This document shows, piece after piece, positions 7,941-35,430 of a stretch of 64,000 bases of DNA. The notes beneath the pieces were generated by a model that did no database searches, was not told where the DNA came from, and saw only the letters and a program-made list of their open reading frames with translations. Origin of the DNA: Cylindrotheca closterium (Eukaryota; Bacillariophyta; Bacillariophyceae; Bacillariales; Bacillariaceae); NCBI GenBank assembly GCA_933822405.4, contig CAKOGP040001936.1:124001-188000 (forward strand), read 5' to 3'. How positions within the stretch are numbered: position 1 is the stretch's first letter; each line of letters opens with the position of its first letter. The translations under genes and the position numbers were made by a program.

Positions 7941-8122
7941 GACTCTGTATTTTTGTTTTTCGCCTTTGCTTGTTGAGGCGGCAGGTATCACATCCGGGTA
8001 TCACCCGGAATACTGCTGTGTGGAGTTATGTACGTCAGCTCTGCGACCGCCGACTATGCAATGAAAAAGAAGACAACGAGATCTGCACAGAAATACTCAT
8101 TTACCAACATAAATAAAATACA

Positions 8123-17756: not shown

Positions 17757-20700
17757 CTACGCACTGAATGTATCTTCTTCCTCATCGTCCGTTGGTGACA
17801 CGGACGAAACGGAATCTGACATTTTCTGCTCCAAAAGCATGTTGTTTCCCTTCGCTTGCTTCTCAAAGGAGGGCTTGATTACTTCCATCTTCAGAATTTC
17901 ATCCTCAGAAGTTAAAGCTGGTTTTCTCAGCTGTAGCTTGTGTGGGGGGAGGAATATGCTTTCCCGACGGCCAATATTCACAACTTTAGGTGTAGGTGTG
18001 GGTTCTTGCTTAATTTTCCGAATCATTTGCTCCAGCATAGCTTCACCTTTGACTGCCCATTCCTTCCTGTTTTCTAGGGCATAGTTTAAACACTCATCAC
18101 TGGCAACACCGAAAACACGACATTCCTCCAACTTTTTGGCAAGTGGGATGACATAATTGTCGCTGCATCAAACGAAAGCAAGAGTGAGATGAGATGTAAT
18201 GTAGTCGAAAAATGCAAGTAGCAACACAATTACGTACAAGAACCAAAGCTCGCCCTTGTACCAGCCCTCTGAGGGATCCTTCTCAGAGCGCCCGGCTTGA
18301 AAAGCTTCATACATCTCGCAAAACAAGCATTCGTTCCACTTGGTATACACCTTCCAATGTTGCATTGTGTGAGCGACGTCTGCAGCTTGAATGATATGCT
18401 CGATAACAATAGCTGCCTTGAGATTCCTAAATTCTGCTGAGGAAACCGAGTCAGAAATATCTGATCGGAAAACTCTTGCCCACCGGGCCTCTCGGATTGA
18501 CTTCATTTCTTTCTCAAAAATATCTGTTGCCATCACTAGATTGACCACAAGTTGACGAAACCTCTTTAATTCCGCTTTTGTAGCGAATAAACATCGTCGC
18601 AACCGCTGAAAGCGGTCTTCCATTAGAAGGTCCCAAGCCATGTCTACAGAGTTTTGCTCAGCAACACTTCTCGACTTGTACTTTTCTGCCAGAAGAGGTT
18701 GCTCTTGATTTCTTCGAGGATTTGATACTCCCGTATGGTCGACATCATGGATTAGAGTGGCAAACATGATTGCGAAATGTGTTAGCGGGTCTGATGTGAT
18801 TCCATAAGTGTAATCATGCATATCAGAGGCAATTTGAAAGACAGATTCGCGATGATAGTTAACAAATTCTGGCTTCACAATTCGGTCCAAGAGTTTATTT
18901 GCGGACATGGTGACATGAATCGCATGTGAAAAGTTATGAAAGGGGTTCTTTCGGTAATTCTTGGAAACAGACTTCACAAATTCACGCAACTCAGAGACCA
19001 ACTCGTTCGGGACTCGAATTGCGGAAGATCGTGCAGCGATAGCCTTCGCAGCTCTTGGATCGAACTTGGGGAGTTCAATACTCTCAGTTATCTCCTCCAA
19101 CACAGTTCCGTCTCTAGCGATGACTTCAGATGGCTCAAATTCTTCCCGCGACTTTCTCCCCCGACCAGCTACAATTTGACTGATCAATCGCTGCAAAAGA
19201 TCAACGAGCCATTCCACTTGGCGATCAGCTTGGCGGCTAGTCTCCATCTCATCACTGTCTTCCTTCCACTCATCTTCGTCACCCCAGACTGATCCATTGC
19301 TACTGACGCTCTTCTCTTCTTCTTCGTCACTCTGCAATGTTGTGACTGGAATGAATTTTGGTCGATTCGCTTCTGTATCGGAAGTGTCTGTACCGGAAGG
19401 TTCTTGCCTTCGCGTCAATACCCAGTAGGTTTGTCTTCTTGAGTGCCCCTGAACTTCAGTGTTTCCATCGGAACGGGGTGCTATCCAGTTCTCTTTTCCA
19501 GCCTCGATGAGAAGTTGAGCCGTTGAAGGTGAGATTTGGATACGATTTGCTTTTCCTGTGCTCTCCATTCGTGATGCCGCATTTACAGTAGCTCCAAATA
19601 GTTGAAAGCGAGATTTTTCCCCTCTTAGGACGCCTGCTGTAACAGGACCACTGTCCAAACCGAATCTCATCCGTAAATTTCCGGTTCCTGGTCCCAAAGA
19701 TACCTCAAGCTTCTTCGTGATCTCGTTGACCTTTTTCAAGCAAGACCTGGCAAATTTTGTCATTCTCAACGCATGATCTGGTTGAGGGTCGGGGAGACCG
19801 GCCACTGCAATATAGCAATCGCCAAAGGTCTCCACCTTGAATACTTCTCTCTTCTTCGCAATTCGATCAAATGCCTGAAAGATTGTCTGCAGGAGAACAA
19901 ACACTTGTTCCGGCTGACGTTCGGAACTCCACGCTGTAAAGCCCTCAATATCTGCAAACAGGACAGTGCAATGCGGAAAGAGATCGGCAATCGGTGCGAC
20001 ATTTGGGTTGGGGTTCGAAGCGTGCTCATCGTGATCGAAGTCTCTCTGACCGTCGTGGTTGGATGCATTCTGCAAGTCCTCCTCGTGAAGAAAGAATCGT
20101 AACCTCATCTTTGCTGGCGCCAACGACGCAACACCGGCCATCATGGACGAAATGGGTGTGGCAATTGGTTTGATAAAATCCTCGACAATAGAACCGTTTT
20201 CATTGCTCGTCCGACGGGGTGACGTGGTATCACCAATGACTACACTTCCTCGTTTTGATTCGTTACTTCCACGACGACTGTCAGGTTCCTGAGTCCCCAA
20301 GATGCGATCGCGAACGTTTTCTGGAAAGAGGGAAGACACAAGTGCGCGACTTGCCTCTGCTGCATCTTCAACATTCTTCATTCTTTCATGCAAATAGTAG
20401 TCGTATATAAGCCCGATAAAGACCAAAAAGAGAGCTACACACGCTGCAATGACGGCATAGACGTCTGCCTGGTTCGTGTTGTACTCGTTGTACAGAGCAT
20501 CTTGAGGGTAGATGTTAATCTCATAAGGACAATAAGCATCATTGATTGCAACCTCAGATGCTGACCGAAATTGCGTGGACGAAAGATCAAAACGTTTGAC
20601 CAAGTTGTCGTATTTTGCATTGTGCAGGTCAAATGGCCCAAGATAGCTGGCAAGTCGGCCGTCAATCTGAAACGAGAAAACGTCCCCACACGAATTTTCG

Positions 20701-21851
20701 AGAACCGCCAAGAGACCTCCTGTGTCTTTGGCAAGTGCCTCTACAAAGAGAGTCTCGAAATCTACCAGTGCAGATATAAGTCCCACTGTCTGCCGACTCT
20801 CTTTGGAGAACGACCCAAAGACTGGAAAGAACATCGTTGAGAGCGGTTGATTTTGATACTCTGAACCGTCTACAATCAATGCATCCGTGCTCTTACTCAA
20901 GAGACAATTGTAATAGTCCTTGAACACAGCGTGCGCTTCCCCAAGACTTGCCGCGTCTTCCAGTTGTGATAGGGTGATGGAGCCAGTCGAAATAGCAGTA
21001 GTGGCCGCATCTGCAAACCGTGGATGTGACAAGTAGTTGATATTTATCAAAGAGCCTTCCGCTGGGGTTTGTTGCCAGGTAGGAAGGAAGGGTCCATTCG
21101 AATCGTCCCTAGTCAAACCCTCTGATGTATCCACTTGAAGAATATCACTGGAAACGGTGAGAGTGCCGCATATATGGTTGGCATCGGTGAGCCATTGAAG
21201 ATTCTCTTGTGTGGCGTTTTGCCAGGTGTCACGCATTGATGAATCTACCAAAGGAAGAAATCCTACGGATAAGAAATCACCCAGCTCATTGACATGACCT
21301 CCTCTGAGTTCGAAATTAGGGAGAGTCACCATTGGCCATGATTGGTCAGATGAAAGTTCATAAGACGTAAACGCTCTCCCAAAAGAATCCATCGCATTAA
21401 GCTTTTCCGCAAGTTTCAGCTGTACACTGCTCATAAGTTTGGCAGTTAAAGTTGACAGCAGTTCTTCAAAGTTATCATCCGAATTTTGTTGAGAAATTGT
21501 GTAGATGGTGAGCGGTAAGCATATCGTAAATGCAGAAAACACAATCACAACCAATATGCGGTACATTCTCGCTTTCTTGGAAGCTCTAATGACAGCGGCA
21601 TTATCCGGAATTGTTTCATGATTATTGTGATGAACCATTTCCGAACTCGCGTGGATGGCACGGTCCGTGTGAGATTCAGCAAAAGATCGGTTTTGCGATT
21701 CCGATGAGGAATCATCATCGTCACTGGAGGATGTCATTCCAACGAAACTAGCTTGTCGTAATCGGCGAAATCGATCTTGTAATGATGTATTTTTCTCCCC
21801 TCCCAGAGGTTGTTCGTAGTCTTGCTCCACAGAGCCTATCATTGTATCCAT
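17757..21851 (-). CDS. Receptor-type nucleotide cyclase/phosphodiesterase fusion
   Basis: Two exons, 18238-21851 and 17757-18162, with a 75-base intron; the splice restores ELWFFDNYVIPLAKKL, a conserved end of the PDE domain. The protein is about 1339 residues from ATG 21851. The order is: acidic cytosolic N-terminus, TM1 (about 97-119), a 340-residue extracellular domain, TM2 (about 464-487), a class III cyclase (about 625-795) and a PDE HD domain (about 960-1325). The cyclase keeps both metal Asp residues (FADIEGF, FGDCYIAV), with Glu in FKVETFGD as in guanylate cyclases, but Gln in RFQLFG where guanylate cyclases have Cys. The PDE has HNFSHAIH, HDVDHTG and AADVAH. Such bifunctional receptors are known in diatoms, including one reported to respond to sex pheromone. 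The open frame continues upstream to 22040 without an ATG, so a further 5' exon is possible. Confidence 0.88.
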
Positions 21852-22711
21852 TTTGTATGTCTTCTGTATGTATTCTATATGAGTCGACTTTGCACAATAC
21901 CCTTCTGTCAGCTTGAGGCCATGGAGACTTCCTGGTACTGACAGTTTCTTGTTTGATTGCTCAGTGTACGGTCTTGCTATCACTCCCTGAAGGCTTTCGA
22001 ATGACCAAGTTGAGGAATCAACCGTAGAGTCAGTACTCAAAGCTCCTCCAACCTTTGCGATTATTTAGAAAAACTCTTTTTTGGAACACGTGGTTTTTGA
22101 AATCCTCTGAGTCGGCTTTTGGGGCAAGTCCACGGGTGCCGGTACAAGGTACGGCATGGACGGTCTACCGGCGAAGCCTCTTCGCAGGAATATTATCTAG
22201 ATAACGTTGCCTAGATATTCAGCGAGGCCACTGCGCTGTAGAACCGAAATGTATTTGAACGATGAACATCAGGTGTGACGAGGAGGCCAGGCAGGATGGA
22301 TGCAAATTCTTGATGGTGGATCGCAAAAGAGAAGGATGATCATCCAGAAACAAGAGTTACAGATTATGCTCTAAAACCATGAAACTTTCCCTTTGGCTCC
22401 TGCTGAGCTGTCATAAAAAAGCAATGACTTACAGCTATGGTATCACAAGCATTTCGTAACAATCCCCAACAACTCTCCCCAGCACATACCTGTGTCACGA
22501 CCAAGGCCTTCTTGGAGATATTGAAAAAATTCAATCTGTGTGGTCGACAAAGATCCACAAGTTCTACACAGAAGCAGACATGATTGGCTCGACCAACCAA
22601 GGGAAGCTGAACTGTAATGTAGGTGCTGGGAACGCATTCATTTTAGGTTTAATTTTTGGTAATCTTGTATATTCTACTCATATTATAGGTAAAATTTGAT
22701 ACGTCTAGTAT
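21852..22711. other. Region between cyclase gene and tRNA
   Basis: The first 190 bases could be an additional 5' exon of the cyclase gene, since the frame is open to about 22065. Beyond that I see only a few GGTAC words (about 22138-22155) and weak short frames at 22364-22637 with no recognisable domain. Confidence 0.4.
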
Positions 22712-23350: not shown

Positions 23351-24556
23351 TTACTCACTCTCTACTACGCATGCTGCGTGAGCCCAGCCCGCAGAAATTT
23401 GTGTTACCTTCTCGTCAACCATAGTCTTTATCATTTGAGCTTGATTCAGGTTTTTGGTCCCCGATCCGACGCCCAAGACTCCCGTTCTTCCAGATCCCCA
23501 CGTGTAGATGTGGTTATCTTCTGACAAAGCCATGGTGTAATCATTGCCGCATGCAACGTCAATAATCTTAGTGTGCAAAACTTCGGCCACTCGAACAGGT
23601 TCGAGATGTAGAGAAATGCCCCACCAGAACAGCTCACCACTCGTTGTGATACACGCTGCATGGTTAGCTCCAGTAGCAATTTTTGTGACGGTTCGGTTCA
23701 TGAGTTCATCAGCATCGATTGGGCGTGGAACTTCCTCCATCGAATACATATCTACTGCCATTCCGAAACCAGTTCCAAGCTGACCTTTATGATTACGTCC
23801 CCAGCCGTATACAATACCTTCGTTCAATGCGAGCGTGAAGGATTTTCCTCCTTCAATCTGATCAGCCCGTTGAAGCAGTTCGACTGGTTCCAAGTAAAGG
23901 GAATCCACAGATGTTTCACCATTCCCCAAGCGGCCGTAACTACTAGAACCAGTTGTTAATACTTCACCTTCCGTTGTCAATACTGTCATGTGTGATTCCC
24001 CTAGGACTACATCCTTGGCATAACAATTATCTTCGACAAGAGACTCCACTAATTTCGGTTGCAAGTATTGTTCTCCATTTCCATGTCCCAAACACCCCAA
24101 TCCAGAAACAACAGACCCACCAAATCCAGCGGTGTACAAGTCCCCATCCTCTGTAATGATTGCAGAGCTACTAGGGCCAAGAGCAACCTGCTTTACTGGT
24201 GGCAAGTCGGGTATTTTTGTCAATTCTGTAACAGGCTTCGTGTGATTCAACCCAAGTTGTCCAGATTTGTTCGTTCCGATAACATAGACGGCTCCATCAG
24301 AATCAATGACAGCTGAATCAGTAGGACCGCACACCACACTTTTTACTTTGAAAGGAAGGTCCTGGACTAGCGTTGGTTCCCATACAATCTTGTCGCTTGT
24401 TGTCTGCATCAAAGATCCATTTTTATTGGTTCCCCAGGTGTAAAGCGAGGCTGGAACGTTTGCTGGTGTTGATGACGAGGAGAGTGATCGCATCACTAGA
24501 CCCCGATTGAGACATGACTGAGCAGCTCTGCTTGTCGATAAAAATGAATGAAACAT
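23351..24556 (-). CDS. RCC1-repeat protein, probably mitochondrial
   Basis: This encodes about 401 residues that are mostly RCC1 beta-propeller blades (YTWGTNKNGSL, YVIGTNKSGQLGL, YTAGFGGSVVSGLGCLGHG, LTTGSSSYGRLGNG, YGWGRNHKGQLGTG, FWWGISL, YTWGSGRTGVLGVG), about seven in total. The first 40 residues are rich in Ser, Arg and Leu with no acids (RGLVMRSLSSSS), which resembles a mitochondrial presequence, so RCC1L/WBSCR16-type proteins of mitochondria are the nearest idea. The frame continues to an ATG at 24631, but that would put a GGTACC palindrome in the coding part, so I prefer 24556. RCC1 propellers act as scaffolds or nucleotide exchange factors; no substrate is implied. Confidence 0.8.
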   Translation of the reverse strand: MFHSFLSTSRAAQSCLNRGLVMRSLSSSSTPANVPASLYTWGTNKNGSLMQTTSDKIVWEPTLVQDLPFKVKSVVCGPTDSAVIDSDGAVYVIGTNKSGQLGLNHTKPVTELTKIPDLPPVKQVALGPSSSAIITEDGDLYTAGFGGSVVSGLGCLGHGNGEQYLQPKLVESLVEDNCYAKDVVLGESHMTVLTTEGEVLTTGSSSYGRLGNGETSVDSLYLEPVELLQRADQIEGGKSFTLALNEGIVYGWGRNHKGQLGTGFGMAVDMYSMEEVPRPIDADELMNRTVTKIATGANHAACITTSGELFWWGISLHLEPVRVAEVLHTKIIDVACGNDYTMALSEDNHIYTWGSGRTGVLGVGSGTKNLNQAQMIKTMVDEKVTQISAGWAHAACVVESE

Positions 24557-24858
24557 ATTTGAGAGTAGTCTTTTGGTTGTTGTGTGGCAACTGTGTCTGA
24601 GAGTGATGTGGGGTACCAGGTACGATATCATCGTTCTCAAAGTGGCAGTCGCCTTGACGACGGACGCACGAAGAGATGGGACATTTGACTCAATCGACTA
24701 AGCGATAAGATTTGGTCTTGGCGGTCTTTATCTGAGTCTTTTTTGTCGTCGCCTGAAGGCTGGAACTGTCACAAGTCAAGTCTCAATAGTTCCCAGTATC
24801 AAAGAAAGAACGACGACTGCTACCAGTACCCTCCGATCCGAACAAGGATTAATTCATC
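24557..24858. other. Divergent promoter, RCC1 and poly-UBL genes
   Basis: About 300 bases separate the starts of two divergent genes. A GGTACCAGGTAC word lies at about 24612-24623. Nothing else is recognised. Confidence 0.5.
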
Positions 24859-27800
24859 ATGGCCAGTAGAAGAAGTAGTGGGCCTCTGTCCCCTGCTGCC
24901 AAGAAGAAGTTATTGAAAATCCCTGAAAGCTCTAGGTACGAGGCTGTTGTGTATCACAAACCTCCAAGCAAAAAGGAGGGCATCAAATTTGTCAAGGATG
25001 AAATGCAAGGCGTTTGGGCGCAAGACGCAAGTATGCATCAGAATCCGGTTCTCCTCTGGGCATTTCCTTATGAGAGCATCCCAGATGGCTTGACGGAGAC
25101 AGAGCATACACAAGGAGTCTGGGGATACATGAATGGTGTTGACGGCAAGGATCCTAAGAAGTTTCAAGCTACAGACATTTACTTTTATCCACCGAATGCC
25201 AAGATTCCCGGAGAATTGAATCAGAAAGGTATCTGGTTATTCCCATTGATTGAGAGAGATATTTCTCACTTGAAGGACTATGAAACCTCCTTTTTGCCTA
25301 TCGGTGAAGCGAAAAAGAGTGAAAAACTCGACGTAGGAGGTGCCTGGAAGCTGTTGTATAAGAATGATGGTAATGAGGGGGCAATAGGACCTGGAATGAA
25401 GAGTAAAGCCAAGAAGGAGCCTCCTCCGATGAAGATCAAAGTCCGTACTCCTGAGGGCAAACTTATCGAATTGGATGTGAAACCAACTGACACCATCGAT
25501 GAAACAAAAGACAAAGTCTTGGACAAGACAGGAATTCCAAAAGATGATCAACGACTTACATTCGATGGAAAAGAACTTGACGATCCAACAACGCTCAAGA
25601 AGAACAAGATTAAGAATGGAGATATTCTTGACATGGATCCTATGCAGATCACCGTCAAGCACTGGGATGGCTCCGTCTTTCCACTACTTGTCACTCCAGA
25701 TGAGAATATCGACAGCATCAAGAATAAAATCAAAAAGCACAAGGATATTCCTAAACCGCAACAGCGAATCAAGTTTGGAAGCACACCTCTCACTGAAGAC
25801 ACCAATACTCTCGACGACTATGGCATTAAGCACAAATCTGTTATCGAACTGCTACCTATGGAAATCAAAGTTCGAACCCCAGATGGAACGTTGTATCCGA
25901 TCGCAGTTACTCCAGAGGATACGGTTGCAGATTTGAAGAAAAAAGTCGAGAAGGAAACTGGTACTCCAGTGCCCGACCAAGTGTTGAAATTCGAAGGAGA
26001 AGAACTTGATGATAAACCAACGCTCGACGATTATGACATCAACCATGGCGATATTGTGGATTTGGGAGGAATGGAAATCTTTGTGAAGCACCCAAGTGGG
26101 TGGACTATCCCATTGAAGGTCAGTCCCTCGGATACGCTCGATAGCATCAAGGATCGTGTGAGTGAGGAGAAGGATATTCCAAAAGAGAATCAACGCCTTT
26201 CGTACGACGGCAAACCTATGAAGAAAGACGAGAAAACGCTGAGTGACTATGGGGTTAAGAACAAAGACACGTTGATGCTTGAGCCCATGTCGATTAACGT
26301 TAGAACACCAGAGGGAAGAAAGATCAAGTTGAAGGTCGATCCAGAGGACACCGTTGAGGATATCAAGAAGAAGGTCGAAGAGAAATTGGAAATCCCTGTC
26401 CCAGAGCAGACTCTATTGTTCAATGATAAAGAACTGGATGACCCAACAACCCTTGATGAGAATGGGATTAGACATGGAGATACTTTGGATCTACAACCAG
26501 CTATGAAGATTCACGTAAAGCATTGGGATGGAACAACGCTCACCCTGGATGTCAAGCCAGAGGATACTATCGATAGCATCAAATCGACTGTGAACGATAA
26601 GTTGGGAATTCCAAACAAGCAACAGCGCCTAACGTTTGACGGCAAGCCGCTCAGAAAAGACTCCAAGACGCTCGAAGAGTACAAGATTAAGGATCAAGAT
26701 ACACTTCATCTCGAACCAATGGAGGTTCACGTTAAGACTCCAGATGGCAAGACTTTGACTTTCCGCGTTGAGCCTACCGATACCGTTGAGGATGTTAAAG
26801 ATAAAGTGGAAGAAGAAATCGGGATGCCAGTTCCTGATCAGAGAATGCTTTTCGATGGAGAGGAACTCAAAGATGCTCCAACATTGGAGGATTACAACAT
26901 TCAAAATGGAGATACTCTCTTCTTGGACCCAATGAAGATTCATGTTAAGCATTATGACGGCAGAATCATCACGCTGGATGTACAACCTGATGACAAGATC
27001 GATGACATCATGGAGCGGGTGGAAGAGAAAGCAGATATTCCAAAAGATCAGCAACGGCTAACGTTCAATAGCAAGCCCCTTGATGATCCTGACAGTACTT
27101 TGCGTGACTACGACATCAAACATGACGACACTTTGAACCTCGAGCCAATGGAGATCAAGGTCAAGACTCCAGATGGCAAGATTATACCAATACAAGTCGA
27201 ACCCTCAGATACCGTGGAAGATGTCAGGAAGAAAATTGGAGACGCAACTGGCGAACCGGCCCCTGAGGAAGATCTTATATTCAAAAATAAGCCATTGGAT
27301 GACCCGAGTTCCACTCTTGCAGACAATGGCGTCAAGCACGGAGACACTATTTCAATAGATCCGATGCAAATTAATGTCAAGCACTGGGATGGGACTGTCA
27401 TTACTTTGGATGTCAACCCCAATGATATTATTGGTGACATCAAGTCCATGGTGGATGATGAAATGGACATCCCTCCAGCATATCAACGGATGAAGTTTGA
27501 AGGCAAGCCACTGAAGAAGAACAAGAAGAGTCTTAAAGATTATAACATCAAGAACAAAGACACCATTGAGCTAGAACCGATGCAAATCAATGTCAAGACC
27601 CCAGAAGGCAAGAAGATACCGATCGAGGTGGAACCCAAGGATACCATCGAGTCAATTAAGCAAAAAGTTGAAGATGCAACGGGTCTTCCTGTCCCTACTC
27701 AGAAACTCCGCAACCCTGATGGCGACTTGCTGGACAACCCCACAACAGTTGCCGACAATGGCATCCAACATGGTGATACCTTGACTTTGGACCCAATGAA

Positions 27801-29121
27801 GATCTATGTCAAGAAACCAGATGGAGAAAAGATCGAACTTGAAGTGAAGCCATCGGATACGGTCGAAGACGTGAAGAAAAAGGTCGAAGATATCGCAGGT
27901 ATCCCGGTTCCAGATCAAACACTTACATTTGACGGAGACGAATTAGATGACCCTACAACTCTGGACGAAAACAGCATCAAGGATGGTGATACTCTAGTAT
28001 TGGAGCCTATGCGAGTCAACGTTAAACATTGGGACGGAACAGTCGCGACATTTGATGTTCAACCTGACGACACAATCGAACACATCAAGTCGCTGGTCGA
28101 TGATAAAATGGACATCCCCCCAGAGCAACAACGTCTAGCGTTTGATGGGAAGCCACTCAAGAAGGACAGTAAGACTCTGCGAGACTACAAGATCGCAAAT
28201 GGTGATACCATCGAGCTTGAACCAATGACAGTAAACGTCAAGACACCAGATGGAAAGGTGATCCCCATTCAGGTTGATCCGCACGACACGATTGAGCAGG
28301 TGAAGAACAAGGTCGAGGACGAAACTGGAATCCCCACTCCCAGCCAAACCCTTCGCGACCCCGCTGGAAATGTGTTGAAAAACCCTACAACTATCGCCGA
28401 CAACGGTATTAAGCATGGTGATACCTTGGAATTGGATCCAATGAAGATATTTGTCAAGAAGCCCAACGGAGAAAAGATAGAACTCGCTGTCTCTCCAACG
28501 AATACAATTGCTGACATTAAGGACAAGGTGGAAGACAAGGACGGAATTCCTGTAATCGATCAACATATGGAATTCGATGGCAAGGACTTGAAGGATGAAC
28601 CAACACTTACCGATTATAAGATTCGGGACGGAGATACCATCGACTTGGTGCCAATGGAGATTATTGTCAAGCATTGGAACAATGCCATTTTCTACTTCCC
28701 TGTAGAACCCGATTTTACCCTTGATCAAGTCAAGGATATGATTGAGAAGAAGCCCCCCAAAATTGAGAAGGATCGACAAAAGCTCACCTTCAAGGAGGAA
28801 CCAATTGAAGAAGATTCCAAGACTCTGCGTGATTATGGAATCAGGCATCGCGACGTGATCAAACTCGTCAAGACGGCCAAGAAGGAGCCCGTGAAAGAGA
28901 AGCCGAAAAAGAAGTCTTATCTCCCTGATAACTGGAAGGAAGAAACCGAGAAAAAGTACGGAACCGTCAAAACTACCACCTTCAAAACCAACTATTCTGG
29001 TGACAATGACGAGAGTTTCTTCCAAGGGAAGATTGGAGAGACGGAAGAAACCTTCCAATTCAGTGAAGTCACTACCAAGACTAAGGGTGACGAAAAGAAG
29101 ATGACCCACAAATTCAACTAA
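24859..29121 (+). CDS. Poly-ubiquitin-like protein with 16 tandem UBL domains
   Basis: One uninterrupted frame encodes 1420 residues. Residues 1-190 are a unique region with aromatic motifs (GVWAQDAS, LLWAFPYESI, GIWLFPLIERD) that I do not recognise. Residues 191-1338 are 16 head-to-tail ubiquitin-like domains of 71-73 residues, each starting with Met and ending LxP or similar (IPxxQQRLTFDGKxL, GDTLxLEP). None ends in Gly-Gly, so this is not polyubiquitin processed by deubiquitinases; it should stay as one rod-like chain. The last 80 residues are charged, with DESFFQGKIGETEETFQF. Domains alternate between types marked TPDG, HWDG and KKPDG near the N-terminus of each. There is no signal peptide or membrane helix. 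A scaffold that presents many UBL surfaces, or a mechanical protein, is possible; the role is unknown. Confidence 0.9.
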   Translation: MASRRSSGPLSPAAKKKLLKIPESSRYEAVVYHKPPSKKEGIKFVKDEMQGVWAQDASMHQNPVLLWAFPYESIPDGLTETEHTQGVWGYMNGVDGKDPKKFQATDIYFYPPNAKIPGELNQKGIWLFPLIERDISHLKDYETSFLPIGEAKKSEKLDVGGAWKLLYKNDGNEGAIGPGMKSKAKKEPPPMKIKVRTPEGKLIELDVKPTDTIDETKDKVLDKTGIPKDDQRLTFDGKELDDPTTLKKNKIKNGDILDMDPMQITVKHWDGSVFPLLVTPDENIDSIKNKIKKHKDIPKPQQRIKFGSTPLTEDTNTLDDYGIKHKSVIELLPMEIKVRTPDGTLYPIAVTPEDTVADLKKKVEKETGTPVPDQVLKFEGEELDDKPTLDDYDINHGDIVDLGGMEIFVKHPSGWTIPLKVSPSDTLDSIKDRVSEEKDIPKENQRLSYDGKPMKKDEKTLSDYGVKNKDTLMLEPMSINVRTPEGRKIKLKVDPEDTVEDIKKKVEEKLEIPVPEQTLLFNDKELDDPTTLDENGIRHGDTLDLQPAMKIHVKHWDGTTLTLDVKPEDTIDSIKSTVNDKLGIPNKQQRLTFDGKPLRKDSKTLEEYKIKDQDTLHLEPMEVHVKTPDGKTLTFRVEPTDTVEDVKDKVEEEIGMPVPDQRMLFDGEELKDAPTLEDYNIQNGDTLFLDPMKIHVKHYDGRIITLDVQPDDKIDDIMERVEEKADIPKDQQRLTFNSKPLDDPDSTLRDYDIKHDDTLNLEPMEIKVKTPDGKIIPIQVEPSDTVEDVRKKIGDATGEPAPEEDLIFKNKPLDDPSSTLADNGVKHGDTISIDPMQINVKHWDGTVITLDVNPNDIIGDIKSMVDDEMDIPPAYQRMKFEGKPLKKNKKSLKDYNIKNKDTIELEPMQINVKTPEGKKIPIEVEPKDTIESIKQKVEDATGLPVPTQKLRNPDGDLLDNPTTVADNGIQHGDTLTLDPMKIYVKKPDGEKIELEVKPSDTVEDVKKKVEDIAGIPVPDQTLTFDGDELDDPTTLDENSIKDGDTLVLEPMRVNVKHWDGTVATFDVQPDDTIEHIKSLVDDKMDIPPEQQRLAFDGKPLKKDSKTLRDYKIANGDTIELEPMTVNVKTPDGKVIPIQVDPHDTIEQVKNKVEDETGIPTPSQTLRDPAGNVLKNPTTIADNGIKHGDTLELDPMKIFVKKPNGEKIELAVSPTNTIADIKDKVEDKDGIPVIDQHMEFDGKDLKDEPTLTDYKIRDGDTIDLVPMEIIVKHWNNAIFYFPVEPDFTLDQVKDMIEKKPPKIEKDRQKLTFKEEPIEEDSKTLRDYGIRHRDVIKLVKTAKKEPVKEKPKKKSYLPDNWKEETEKKYGTVKTTTFKTNYSGDNDESFFQGKIGETEETFQFSEVTTKTKGDEKKMTHKFN
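25429..28872 (+). repeat. Array of 16 UBL-coding units
   Basis: The units are 71-73 codons. By the residues after the first strand (TPEG/TPDG = A, HWDG-like = B, KKPDG/KKPNG = A') the order is A B five times, then A A' B twice. The two A A' B blocks (27580-28224 and 28225-28872) match unit by unit, including LRxPxGxxLxNPTT shared by units 11 and 14, so the last block is a later triplet duplication. Confidence 0.85.
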
Positions 29122-29602: not shown

Positions 29603-30757
29603 TCATTCTTGCTTCTTGTGATACAACGAGGCAATCGACCAAGGCGCCGTATCCGGACAATTGATCTTCAAGTCGCCTTGCCACTCGTGTCCATCCTTCG
29701 AGTCCAGTCTCCCGTCTACAATGACTACACGAGCTCCCTTGGGCAGACCTTGCAAGGCTTTGGACAACAATGGCAATTTGCGGCCTTGCAAACTAATCTT
29801 TGTGGTTGCCTCTTCCGCATTGGCATTGTTGTTTCCTGCACTCCATGTTGTAGCAAAGCAGACAACCAGTGTTGAATCCTCCAGAATATTGTTCAGCGTG
29901 GAAGAATCATAGGCATTATTGCTGGAAGCAGCTTTGTGAATGTCACCTAGATGAAATTCGACGGGCGACTGTTGCTCTCTCAGAAATCTTCCGTCGACAC
30001 CTGTTTCCTCTTTTAGAATATTGGAAAGTTTTTCTTGGTGTTTCAAGGATCGTTCGTACAAACCAGGGACAATTTCCAATCCCCTTGCTACTGCAATGGC
30101 ATTCTTCTTTTCATCATCATCATCATCATCATCATCTCCAGCATACAATAGACTGGCGCCCAAGACTAGAGCACCATCTCCCGATCCTATATCCAAAAAC
30201 TTGTCTCCAGGATAAACTCCAACCGCATCCAAAATGGTGGTCAGCACGGGCAGGGAAAGTTCTCCATAGACTAGCTCATACGATTCCATTTCGGATGAAG
30301 TTTCCCATTCCAAGGCAGCTCTTCGTGCCAAAGCATATCGATCGTCCTTGAGGAGTTTGTTGGATTCCTCCTTTTTGGAAGTGCTACTAGTGCTGGTAGT
30401 AGGAGAGGAAACTGATTTTTTCAGGAGCAGTGGACCATCATGATCCGCCGTGTCCTCCTCCTCACCTTCTTGTTCCCTCCTAGTATTGTTGGTGGTGTCA
30501 CCCAAAGCACTTGATACCAAATTGGAGACTTGTTCGAGCCGTTTTGGTGAGACTTCCGGCACTGGAATAGGAGTGGTCGTCGTCGTTGTTGTTGTTGTTG
30601 TTGTTTTTGTTTTTGTTGTTGTTGTTGTTGTTGTTGGATGGACAAGTGAATTCGCAGGAAAAGGCAGTGACAGGAGCAGTACTAGTAGTAGCATAAGTAG
30701 ATTGTGGCCGAGTGCCAAAGTAAGGATACCATGAATGGAAATCCCTCCTTTTGACAT
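29603..30757 (-). CDS. Secretory-pathway class I methyltransferase-like protein
   Basis: This encodes about 384 residues. It begins with an N-terminal signal sequence (LLMLLLVLLLSLPFPANS), then a long Thr run from an ACA/AAC microsatellite. After a Lys/Ser-rich linker comes an S-adenosylmethionine-binding domain: motif I KFLDIGSGDGALVLGAS, and an acidic end of strand 2 in RGLEIVPGLYERS. The Asp run between them comes from a GAT microsatellite and expands a loop. The layout recalls small Rossmann methyltransferases of the DOT1 or FAM173 type, but the substrate is not evident. I chose ATG 30757 because the frame upstream is charged and the signal sequence begins there. Confidence 0.72.
   Translation of the reverse strand: MSKGGISIHGILTLALGHNLLMLLLVLLLSLPFPANSLVHPTTTTTTTKTKTTTTTTTTTTTPIPVPEVSPKRLEQVSNLVSSALGDTTNNTRREQEGEEEDTADHDGPLLLKKSVSSPTTSTSSTSKKEESNKLLKDDRYALARRAALEWETSSEMESYELVYGELSLPVLTTILDAVGVYPGDKFLDIGSGDGALVLGASLLYAGDDDDDDDDEKKNAIAVARGLEIVPGLYERSLKHQEKLSNILKEETGVDGRFLREQQSPVEFHLGDIHKAASSNNAYDSSTLNNILEDSTLVVCFATTWSAGNNNANAEEATTKISLQGRKLPLLSKALQGLPKGARVVIVDGRLDSKDGHEWQGDLKINCPDTAPWSIASLYHKKQE
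30111..30136 (+). repeat. ATC trinucleotide microsatellite in coding sequence
   Basis: About eight TCA/ATC units encode the poly-Asp run of the methyltransferase. A second TTG-rich run at 30575-30636 encodes its poly-Thr run. Confidence 0.85.
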
Positions 30758-31429
30758 GATGATTACAAGATGATCTATATTTATAGAGAATGGATCACTT
30801 TTATTGTTAGCGGTAGTCGAGAGGGAGACCTTCGAACGAATGATGATGGAAGCAAGTACGGATGATGGATTTTCCATTTTTGGATGATGATGTGGTGCGG
30901 AAGAGGGACAGACCACTGAGATCATCTTTGTTCGAGCCAAAACTCTTTTGCCGTAGCGAAAGTACGATAGACTACTCATTCGAAGGGGTCGATCCTCGTA
31001 GGTTTCGAACAAAGCAAAAGACAATAACACACGCATTCATTCGTTCCGAAAACTACAGTAAAGCTGTGCAAAGGCAACCAAGCCAAAAGTCCACCACAAG
31101 GCGCACGCTTCGGGAGACTTGAATTGCCAACAGCTTACACAGAGAACTCCGCAGATTGTCTTTGCGCTATTGGTGGCAAACGTACACATACACGTACACG
31201 TACACGTACAGGTACGATAAAAGTAGATCAGATCCTTCCAAACACACCACCAACGCCGTGACTGATCTGAGGAGCTTCTAGTCGCAAGTTGAAAAGAAGA
31301 CAGAACACGAAAATAGAAGAGACTATTGCCCTTGAAGCGTCTTACTTCTTGCCTCCAATCTACCATTACTGCTTGAAGCAATCAGTCTTGCGACATTTTC
31401 GACTTTGGACCAAATTTGACACCACCATC
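30758..31429. other. Divergent promoter, methyltransferase and RAD54
   Basis: There is no gene. The region lies between two divergent starts. A CGTACA microsatellite is at about 31180-31213 and ends in GGTACG. Confidence 0.5.
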
Positions 31430-34400
31430 ATGATTTTCAAACGACGCAAGACTCGACCTTCCTTTGGCGCCGATGGACAGCGCCTCGATGGTGCACCTCG
31501 TGGACTGCCTTCTTTTCTATCCACTACCAACACCACCAACAACAACACCACCACCAACAACAATAATAACAGTAATAACAGTAACAACAACACATCCACT
31601 GCTGTTGTCGGCCAACGACCCCGTCCAGCGCTTGGCGGCGTCCGTTCCAACTCCAATCGCAAACTGCTTGGTTGCCGTCCTCAAATTGGCAGCAGCAATC
31701 GCCTCTTTCGGACCGGCCAAAAATTGGTAGTCCAGAATGCTACCTTTATGCCGGGTCTCCAATGCAGCACTGGCGGTAGCGGTGGGGGTGGACTCAATAA
31801 GAAATTCCAGCGCCCCATGCAGTCTCGACGGGCCTACAAGGGAGGAGCCGATGCCGCACTCAAACGGTCATCGCTCGGTGCCAGGCAGCGAACGGATGGC
31901 ATGGCCAGGATCTTTTCGAGAGCAGGCAAGGGTTTAAACTTTCAGTCCTCGCGAGTGCAACGGAAGGAAGAGGATACGGATAGCTGTTCCAATTCGGAGG
32001 ACGAAGACGAAGATCCAGCAGATGAAAAACCATTCGAGCCGCTGCGTGTCTGGCAGAGTCCACATCAGGGAGGCAAGCCGCAGGGATTGCCGTCGCAATT
32101 GTACGTTGGATTTATGTGACGTTGCTTGTTTTGTTTTGTATTGTTTTTGTTTGTTTGGGAGGAACAAAGCTCATACATTCTACTTTCTACAGAGTCTCCG
32201 CTGTCCAAACGGATGAATATGGAGTGGAAGAAACGGTCACGGTGGTACAAGCGGCCCCCTTGCAAAAGTACAGCAAACAAGACGTCTTTGTACCTCCTGT
32301 ATTGGCCAAATGGTTGCGACCGCATCAACGGGAGGGAGTCGACTTCATGTATCAATGTGTCATGGGAATGAAAGAGTTTGCGGGAAATGGATGCATTCTG
32401 GCCGATGATATGGGTAAGTCTTTTTGTTTTGCTTTGTTTTTTTGCTTGCTTGCAACCATTTGGAATGGTTCTTCGTCCAACAATTGCTGTGAAACTAACG
32501 AACGAATTCCTTGCAACGTCTCTCCCTCCCTCCATTATTTCGACAGGACTTGGAAAGACATTACAGTCCGTGACCTTGATTTGGACCCTTCTCAAGACAG
32601 GAATCACAGCCAACGGTGATCCCACTGCCAAGAGAGTCATTGTCGTTTGTCCTTGTAGTTTGGTCAAGAATTGGGACAATGAATTTGTCAAGTGGCTGGG
32701 ACCAAACACTGTCAAGACTTTGGCCATTGCAGAGGGGAGTCGCAAAGAAGTCGAACGGGATCTGGATTCCTTTGTCCGTACCAGACTTTTCAATGTCTTG
32801 ATTTGTAGTTACGAATGTCTTCGAACTCATGCCAAGCGTCTGACCAAGGTTGCCGATTGTTGTGATTTGTTGGTCTGTGATGAGGCACATCGATTGAAGA
32901 ACAATGAGAATCAAACCAGTCGGGCTCTGAATTCCTTGCCTGTGAAACGACGAGTCCTCTTGACCGGAACTCCCATGCAGAATGATTTGCAAGAGTTCTA
33001 TGCCATGGTGGACTTTACCAATCCTGGAGTCTTGGGAACTCAAGAAGAATTCCGAAAGAAGATGCTCTTTCCTATCCTCCGGGGTAGGGAACCAGATGCC
33101 ACCGAGGCCCAGAAGAAACGCATGATGGACATTCAAAATGATATGAGTACTATTGTCAATCAATTCATCTTGCGACGAATCAATACCTTGAATGCCCAAC
33201 ATCTTCCCCCCAAATTGGTACAAGTCGTATGTTGTAACCTGACGGAAATTCAGCAGAACATGTACCAACACTTGATTACCAGCAAAGATATGCACCACGT
33301 CATGGAAGGAAAACAAGTCAACTGTCTTGGATCTATCCAAATGCTCATGAAACTGTGCAATCACCCAAGTTTGGTGGCGGAAGAAGATGGTGGCAACCAA
33401 CCCCAAAAAGGCCGCAGAAAGGGTACAAAACAAGTCAAGTACAATGAGGACGAGCCCGCATCTTCGGCTGCTCCAGGAGCCGATGGAATTGTCAAGTTCT
33501 TGCCCATGTCTGGCGGTGGTGGCGGTCGAGGCAACCACAACGTCCCTGTCCATCCCGAGTGGAGTGGCAAGATGTTTGTCCTCTTTAGACTCATGAAGGA
33601 AATGCGGAGGCCTGGTAATGGGAATGACAAGATTGTCATTGTGTCCAACTATACTCAAACCTTGGATTTGATCGGTCGCATGTGCCGGCAGAATTCGTGG
33701 GGATTTTGTCGATTGGATGGAAGCATCACCATGAAGAAGCGGCAAAAGATGGTCGACGAGTTCAATGACCCGAGTAGTCCATTGATAGCCTTTTTACTTT
33801 CCAGTAAGGCCGGAGGATGGTAAGAGCTATGTTGGATATGAACAGAAATTTTCTGCTTTGAACATTCAATCTTACCTTGTTTTTTGTTTCTTGCAGCGGA
33901 TTGAATCTAATCGGAGGCAATCGACTTGTGCTTTTCGATCCAGGTAAGATAATCGGAGTGGTAGTAGTGTTTACGCTCAAGATTAATTGCTGACTCCGAC
34001 ATTCCACCATCACTACTTGTATAGATTGGAACCCCGCAGTCGACAAACAAGCTGCGGCTCGATGTTGGCGTGATGGGCAAAAGAAGAGGTGCTTTACATA
34101 CCGCTTTCTTGCAACAGGAACTGTGGAGGAGAAGATCTTTCAGCGCCAACTTTCCAAGGAAGGTCTTCAGTCGGTGGTGGACGACAAGGAACAAGTGAAC
34201 GCGCTCAGTACAAAAGACTTGCGAAATCTATTCAAGTTGCGAAATGGTACTCCTTCAGACACTCACGACAAGCTTCGATGCGAACGATGTAAGATCATCC
34301 ATGACAATGCCGAGTCGGACGCGTTGAAAGTACTGCCGAAGAAGCTTGCGGCTTGCTTGGAACTCATCGAGGAGATGACGAAGCACGAAGATGCGTCTCA

Positions 34401-35430
34401 TTTTCTTGCACCACTCAATCCGGAAGATCATGGCGTCAGCAAGGAAGCGTACGAAAAGGCGGTCAAACAGCCGATGGATCTTGGTACAGTTCGCAATCGT
34501 CTAGGAATGACCCAGGACCAACCAAATGCCTACACCAGCGTGTCCACTGTTTCGAAAGATGTCAACAGAATTTTCTCCAACGTGGTGAAAGTTTGGTCTC
34601 CTGGTGATGCAATTGCGGACGCCTCTCGAAGGCTACAGACTTGGTGGGTCGAGCAATGGACCGAGCTAGTTCCTCGTCTGATGATCATGAAAGCGACCGA
34701 GGACCAATGTCCGTTTGCGAATGATGCAGAGTCAGATCCATTTGAAGGCAGTGCTGCAATCAACAACGAGCGCGGCGACGACTATCAAGAACAAATCGGT
34801 ATGCCTGACGAGGAGAACATGCGCCACTGGTCTCATCATCACAGCGCAGATACTGTTGATGATCCTGTATTCCGTGCTGCAATGAGAGGATCAGATGCTG
34901 TCTCTTTTGTGTTCGGGCTCGAAGTAACATGGAGCCTCATTCAACAGCGCCAACAGGAGGAGGAAGAGCGACAAGCAATGCAAGAATTGGAGGCAGCAGA
35001 AGCCTTGCAAGAAGACGACGAGAATGAAGATGATGAAGAGCCTGATTCTGATTCTGGTGCGAAAACTGATCATGTCGATATGAACGACAAGAGTGAAGAC
35101 AATGAAATGGCCGACGTTCTAAACGACGAAACAAATCTGCAGCACTCCGAGGGTCCAGCTGAACCTAAATTGGTCGAGCAAAGCACCCATGTTCTATCCG
35201 TCGATAGTCCCTCCTCTACTATTGTAGCAACGATTCTTTCTGCGGAGATTTGCACCCAAGACAGCAGCAACAATGAAAACTGCAAACCTTCCGTTGCTGA
35301 GATTGCTACACCTTCTCAAACCGAATGGGAGTGTTCAGCATGCCATTACTTCAACCAAGATAGCTTGAAGAAATGTGAAATGTGTACAGCCAAACGGCAG
35401 AAAAAGCGCTCAATCGAGGAAGTAGACTAG
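31430..35430 (+). CDS. RAD54: RAD54-family SNF2 ATPase fused to bromodomain and RanBP2 zinc finger
   Basis: Five exons (31430-32100, 32193-32413, 32547-33819, 33897-33943, 34025-35430) join in phase to 1205 residues. Residues 1-220 are basic and Asn/Thr-rich. The SNF2 helicase core follows: DDMGLGKTLQ (Walker A, about 297), CDEAHRLKN (motif II, about 408), and [39 protein letters not shown] (motifs V-VI), the RAD54 signature. RAD54 works with RAD51 on double-stranded DNA in homologous recombination. Beyond the usual end ([13 protein letters not shown]) the frame continues with a bromodomain-like segment (about 840-955: [24 protein letters not shown]). It then has an acidic coiled stretch and a RanBP2-type zinc finger (WECSACHYF...KKCEMC, about 1172-1195). 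Known RAD54 proteins lack the last two. Confidence 0.88.

Follow-up and report, generated by a model that had tools for sequence, protein, structure and literature searches.

A gene for sixteen head-to-tail ubiquitin-like units without the polyubiquitin cleavage tail in the diatom Cylindrotheca closterium

The window analysed here comprises 64,000 nucleotides of the diatom Cylindrotheca closterium (positions 124001-188000 of contig C392, GenBank CAKOGP040001936.1, in a genome of 47.6 Mb and 572 contigs) and contains a gene on its forward strand that encodes a long chain of ubiquitin-like (UBL) domains. The gene consists of a single uninterrupted frame of 1420 residues, which begins with an ATG and has an in-frame TAA close upstream at 24850. 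Its features are collected in Table 1 together with other genes of the window; for neither of the two flanking frames is a link to the array gene evident.

Table 1. Features of the UBL-array gene and other frames in the window (P numbers denote proteins retrieved in our searches)
Feature	Position in window	Strand	Details
UBL-array gene	24859..29121	+	1420 aa, no intron needed; full-length relatives P0001 (92% identical, 1420 aa) and P0002 (83%)
N-terminal 'GVW' domain	24919..25407	+	Residues 21-183; 207 bits; basic; label coined here
Array of 16 UBL units	25429..28866	+	Residues 191-1336; pI 4.7; no cysteine
Sole Gly-Gly at a unit junction	26065..26070	+	Residues 403-404, between units 3 and 4; not conserved among relatives
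Units 10-12, three-unit block, copy 1	27364..28008	+	Units 10/13, 11/14 and 12/15 are 68, 68 and 59% identical
Units 13-15, three-unit block, copy 2	28009..28653	+	Pairwise identity to units 10-12 as above
C-terminal tail motif	28906..29085	+	Residues 1350-1409; ...KKKSYLPxNWKEE...KYG...; 96 bits; within basic tail
Cyclase-phosphodiesterase protein	18171-22040	-	One protein, adenylate/guanylate cyclase domain followed by cyclic-nucleotide phosphodiesterase domain
Flanking gene	23354-24640	-	RCC1-repeat protein
Flanking frame	29606-31036	-	DOT1-like methyltransferase match
SNF2-type helicase frame	32378-33820	+	Adjoins bromodomain frame
Bromodomain frame	34123-35427	+	RanBP zinc-finger match below cut-off

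The predicted protein of 160.8 kDa contains 16 stretches that match the Pfam ubiquitin model (E=1e-268), with units starting at residues 191, 262, 334, 405, 477, 549, 621, 692, 764, 836, 908, 980, 1051, 1123, 1195 and 1266. All 15 intervals between these starts measure either 71 or 72 residues and there are no linkers. A chance origin of the array is excluded by the Pfam E-values and by three relatives that have retained 16 units, and the array architecture of the protein is secure. The acidic array is flanked by basic ends, with a pI of 9.0 for residues 1-190 and of 9.2 for the C-terminal end. Neither a cysteine nor a hydrophobic segment was found; in the hydropathy profile of the whole protein, the best 19-residue mean is 0.65 and the value near the start 0.23. 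As judged from hydropathy, the non-hydrophobic start and the lack of a membrane segment argue against a secreted or silica-associated wall protein, and the same start argues against a plastid-targeted UBL protein with a signal sequence; both readings were dropped.

In a predicted structure of units 13-16, these fold into beta-grasp domains characteristic of the ubiquitin-like superfamily, with unit 15 superimposing on ubiquitin at 0.7 Å over 71 residues. The best fold match of this four-unit model is linear tetra-ubiquitin (Foldseek E 4e-35), and the gap between beta-5 of one unit and beta-1 of its neighbour amounts to 1-2 residues. As a pair, two modelled units fit linear di-ubiquitin poorly (root mean square deviation 5.9 Å over 146 residues). 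The first-pass annotation of this DNA had described 16 head-to-tail UBL domains without linkers, in a chain of about 160 kDa lacking polyubiquitin-type cut sites, and had proposed a fold search as a check of the units. The regular spacing and the 16 Pfam stretches confirm the arrangement, the model and its ubiquitin-type Foldseek matches support the assigned fold, and the single frame, its mass and the absence of any LRGG sequence are in accord with the proposed chain. Its statement that di-glycine sites are missing stands for the ubiquitin-type tail and fails for one non-conserved Gly-Gly at the junction of units 3 and 4.

The relation to polyubiquitin can be assessed within the same genome, where frame C435 encodes six units with a spacing of 75-76 residues and six LRGG sequences, thus providing an internal control. 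Both proteins consist of ubiquitin-fold units placed head-to-tail in one frame. Whereas polyubiquitin is defined by a Gly75-Gly76 terminus and by near-identical units that evolve in concert, the window array has a spacing of 71-72 residues, contains G75 or G76 in none of its 16 units and LRGG nowhere, and its units are 28-68% identical to each other and colinear between close relatives (16 out of 16). Of two Gly-Gly pairs in the protein, starting at residues 160 and 403, the latter corresponds to ubiquitin positions 70-71 and lacks the LRLR stalk; among seven close relatives, this junction reads GG in P0001 alone and EG, VG or EV in the others. R72, R74, G75 and G76 are absent in all 261 units of the closest group, which comprises 21 proteins with both the N-terminal domain and the C-terminal tail. 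These and the following position counts depend on a single MAFFT alignment, built from 749 units and with a gap at position 1 in 311 of them (24 of the 261 in the closest group).

Comparisons with other tandem UBL proteins reveal similar distinctions. Linear (Met1-linked) ubiquitin chains and modifiers with two UBL domains (e.g. ISG15), both found among the fold matches, share the tandem beta-grasp units. In structures of linear ubiquitin, LRLRGG is located between the folded units, a spacer also visible in C435, whereas in the window array the next methionine follows directly after ubiquitin position 71. USP7 (fold match 7xpy) resembles the window protein in having several UBL domains. USP7 contains five such units compared to the 16 found here, and the window protein shows no peptidase domain among the best 25 of the 28 Pfam families that it matches at E ≤ 1. 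A further candidate, Rad23, was suggested by the NCBIfam profile TIGR00601, which gives a score of 350 (cut-off 207). This match divides into 16 stretches, the best of which covers only positions 1-69 of the 381 profile positions, and we have rejected it since the score is inflated by the repetition of the UBL unit. Rad23 proteins combine a UBL domain with subsequent UBA domains and an XPC-binding domain; no UBA domain was found among the same 25 families.

The surface of the units also departs from ubiquitin, while the core is preserved. Among the buried residues of the window units, V5 and V17 are present in 16 of 16 and L50, L56, I61 and L69 in 14 of 16, with comparable conservation in the closest group (e.g. 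V17 in 252, L50 in 245 and L69 in 238 of 261 units). Conversely, the L8/I44/V70 patch is lost, with L8 found in none, I44 in one and V70 in two of the 16 units. Position 8 is occupied by Pro, Trp or Tyr in every window unit, and polar or charged residues predominate at positions 44, 68 and 70. All three patch positions are aliphatic in none of the 261 units of the closest group and in 2 of the 749 family units, and at least two of them in 9 and 39 units, respectively. By these counts, and by those of R72, R74, G75 and G76, both the reading surface of ubiquitin and its tail for cleavage and conjugation are gone. Between the window units and those of P0001, P0002 and P0003, with residues assigned to classes from the structure of ubiquitin, identity is 0.837 for the I44 face, 0.836 for the helix and back face, 0.899 for the core and 0.925 for the poles at the junctions. 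Positions 6 and 8, which were drawn on the I44 face, are invariant in this comparison. Within the loop connecting beta-1 and beta-2 (positions 6-10), identity reaches 0.988, a value matched by 4 of 10000 random sets for a segment that was chosen post hoc.

Both ends of the protein are defined by modules of their own. The GVW domain, with the motif ...GVW...P..LW.F...GVWGY...P..K.P...GIWTFP.., has no match in Pfam at E ≤ 10 and no convincing match in the PDB, and the C-terminal tail has no Pfam match either. A viral or prokaryotic origin of the N-terminal domain was considered and dropped, as tblastn did not detect a relative in either the 39 viral or the 219 genome pattern matches, in a single-protein search that is sensitive to close relatives only. 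In the same genome, the domain recurs in the UBL-array frames C249 and C548, and close to the C-terminus in C541, as it does in the relative P0065, and the tail motif is found in two UBL-array frames that lie side by side on contig C223. Copies of the GVW domain also form arrays devoid of UBL units, with 16 copies in a frame of 2851 residues and three in a neighbouring frame of 556 residues on C329, and three copies, one of them weak, on C46. On C329, the N-terminal domain of the window gene is the building unit of another array protein that is likewise undescribed. A stretch at the N-terminus is common to the C329 and C541 proteins (E 1.3e-4). The recurrence of this stretch, of the GVW domain and of the tail links UBL arrays and GVW arrays into one network of shared parts. 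On this contig, Pfam at E ≤ 0.1 matches neither the 556-residue frame nor 2567 residues of the 2851-residue frame. A 2570-residue frame on C190 contains a weak stretch matching the N-terminus of C329 (E 0.0026), and the part of it that was examined appears to be of low complexity.

Protein searches returned 35 and 47 proteins, 67 of them distinct, to which a further search added none, and since only the best 7990-7994 candidates sharing words with the query were scored, the size and range of the family are lower bounds. We scanned 79 proteins, consisting of these 67, the window protein, eight UBL frames of the same genome (including the polyubiquitin C435) and three GVW frames. Family membership was defined by a GVW domain and/or a KKSYLP tail combined with at least four UBL units, using profiles built partly from the window protein, which itself scores 207 bits for the domain and 96 bits for the tail in addition to its 16 units. 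This definition is matched by 50 proteins with 4-31 UBL units, 21 of which contain both ends and 6-20 units; in several of the latter (e.g. P0009, P0014, P0015, P0018 and P0019) the N-terminal domain is partial and spans 59 to 88 residues. Organism names are attached to seven of the 50 members, all from the Bacillariaceae, a family of raphid pennate diatoms, namely Cylindrotheca fusiformis (P0005, P0065), a Pseudo-nitzschia record with the taxid of P. pungens (P0009), P. multistriata (P0041), Nitzschia inconspicua (P0051 and P0053, both with the maximum of 31 units) and a Bacillariaceae metagenome record (P0054). A protein of Seminavis robusta from the Naviculales named Polyubiquitin (Fragment) (P0063) has seven UBL units and neither end, and is thus placed outside the 50. 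Relatives labelled as transcripts encode entire arrays, as found in P0009 (MMETSP1061) and P0029 (labelled complete), both with 20 units, and by analogy their single frames argue against splicing of the window gene into small products.

Within the genome of C. closterium, a six-frame reading that does not account for introns, and for which repeat counts are lower bounds, identified eight array frames of at least five units with a total of at least 97, located on C392 (16 units), C548 (25), C223 (10 and 20), C68 (10), C113 (6), C541 (5) and C249 (5). The adjacent frames on C223 have near-identical tail motifs and Ser/Lys-rich C-termini and are probably the result of a tandem gene duplication. 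Outside the family, the large protein P0012 (2025 residues, 27 UBL units) similarly has a long array in which GG is rare (2 of 26 junctions); unlike the window protein, it contains neither GVW domain nor tail, and its junctions LRAS/M and LPHG/M resemble decayed polyubiquitin. It perhaps became an uncuttable ubiquitin array independently. The first-pass annotation had portrayed a single unusual protein with a unique N-terminal region. Both descriptions had to be abandoned, as the protein belongs to a family with up to 31 units and has seven further UBL-array frames beside it in the genome, and its N-terminal region is a conserved domain that many relatives share and that recurs in three further UBL-array frames of the genome and in a 16-fold array elsewhere. 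Its remark that no named family has this plan was upheld, with neither end matching Pfam and with no description of diatom UBL arrays found in the excerpts of open-licence literature consulted (among them PMC11992049, PMC7335047, PMC8027222, PMC6156597 and PMC6332867). Within that literature, the fold is known and the class of proteins with its end domains apparently undescribed.

The arrays have grown by whole units and blocks. In the window protein, this is evident in the three-unit block present in two copies. Two types of units, with a TPDG-like and a HWDG-like loop, alternate across the first ten units (unit 4 reading HPSG and unit 8 HYDG). The presence of glycine at position 64 alternates perfectly in units 1-11 and switches at 11 of the 15 neighbouring pairs of the array, a number reached by 70 of 2000 shuffles; P0011 (11/11) and P0041 (13/13) alternate without exception. 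Counted over all 240 neighbouring pairs in the 21 proteins with both ends, there are 156 switches compared to 120.4 expected, with values below expectation in seven of them (P0014, P0015, P0018, P0019, P0026, P0048 and P0050). A unit-by-unit mapping to the window array covered 12 of the 67 relatives. In P0001, P0002 and P0003, each of the 16 units is best matched by the window unit of the same number. The 11 units of P0004 and P0006 map to window units 1, 2, 3, 6, 7, 8, 12, 10, 11, 15 and 16, and P0005 contains the same set and three more, giving 14. All three have retained units 1-3 and the two final units, and their differences consist of whole units. In the more distant P0008, P0010, P0011, P0013, P0014 and P0017, colinearity of the whole array is not seen. 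Units of close relatives have thus kept their identity, which is opposite to the behaviour of polyubiquitin.

We propose that the gene product remains a single uncut chain, located in the cytosol or nucleus, and that it puts the ubiquitin fold to a new use as a structural repeat. Beta-5 of each unit would run straight into beta-1 of the next to form an extended acidic rod or spacer, which, at about 3.5 nm per unit as in ubiquitin, is estimated to be near 55-60 nm in length. The basic GVW domain would cap one end of this rod and the basic conserved tail the other. Both ends would bind partners, with the array setting the distance between them or offering unit-specific contacts, perhaps via the 6-10 loop. 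We advance this intracellular acidic rod or spacer, with a basic module at either end, tentatively and with slightly less than even confidence; its uncut state in the cell, its shape, the binding by its ends, its location and its role are inferred. Several observations weigh against it. The model of units 13-16 has a pTM of only 0.55 and does not establish rigidity of the array. The high conservation of the junction poles compared to other non-core positions, matched by 98 of 10000 random sets, ceases to be significant upon removal of M1, G10, P37 and P71 (1499 of 10000), for which reason we give it no weight, and the unit-by-unit identity of close relatives suggests a role beyond that of a passive spacer. 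This latter observation would also be in accord with a multivalent platform, in which a surface other than the I44 face, chiefly the beta-1/beta-2 loop with its TPDG or HWDG sequence, recruits specific partners, and the two alternating types of units provide two kinds of sites. Such a platform would explain the near-invariance of the loop and the alternation at position 64. The loop is, however, located at a pole where it may instead contact the neighbouring unit, it was singled out once the values of each position were known, and the seven proteins that switch below expectation indicate that alternating types are not required throughout the family. We consider this explanation rather unlikely.

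The same individuality of units bears on the possibility that the array has expanded by unequal crossing-over and is loosely kept, with little specific function. Unit numbers between 4 and 31 and the duplication of blocks such as units 10-12 and 13-15 would be expected in this case, whereas the preservation of 16 units, their order and the frame in P0001 and P0002, together with the conservation of both protein ends, would not, which makes it quite improbable. The first-pass annotation had envisaged a scaffold for ubiquitin-binding proteins, and in its usual form, where the array as mimic or decoy of linear ubiquitin would engage such proteins, Cdc48 or the proteasome, this idea is improbable and was dropped in view of the lost patch. 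Units are 38-54% identical to ubiquitin of the same genome, four of them are best matched by linear tetra-ubiquitin, and positions 6 and 8 are invariant in three close relatives, but the patch that would be read is replaced by Pro, Trp or Tyr at position 8 and by mostly polar or charged residues at 44, 68 and 70, is rarely aliphatic at two positions across the family and resides on a face whose conservation does not exceed that of the back. The other suggestion of the annotation, a spring-like structural protein, may hold in the form of a structural rod. Least probable, and likewise dropped, is a precursor that is cut into monomers in the manner of polyubiquitin. It is invoked by public names of the matches (ubiquitin C, Polyubiquitin (Fragment) or ubiquitin family protein), by the GG at one junction and by 29 matches to USP-type peptidases in the same genome, and it is contradicted by junctions that nowhere contain LRGG, by the displaced and non-conserved position of the single GG and by units that diverge yet remain colinear between close relatives.

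Since several database entries carry names such as ubiquitin C or ubiquitin family protein, annotation hides UBL arrays, and automatic naming could label the window protein as polyubiquitin or Rad23 although the defining features of both fail. With 28 Pfam families matched by the window protein alone, such arrays could also bias diatom surveys in which ubiquitin Pfams are summed. In the Tara Oceans data, 47 ubiquitin-domain Pfams merged are reported to account for 4.2% of diatom transcript abundance (PMC11992049), to which UBL arrays might contribute. With the GVW domain and the KKSYLP tail, two uncharacterised modules have now become testable. The ubiquitin fold is usually treated as a signal, one that is cleaved, attached and read. 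Repeated up to 31 times in relatives of the window protein, and devoid of the usual cut site and of the standard reading surface, it would instead be a structural repeat akin to immunoglobulin or spectrin domains. It appears possible, although we hold this with clearly less than even confidence, that Bacillariaceae diatoms have turned ubiquitin into construction material, in the form of uncleavable, patch-less beta-grasp rods of 4-31 units capped by a new GVW domain that itself forms arrays, which would constitute a lineage-specific intracellular scaffold with a plan comparable to repeat proteins of the titin type.

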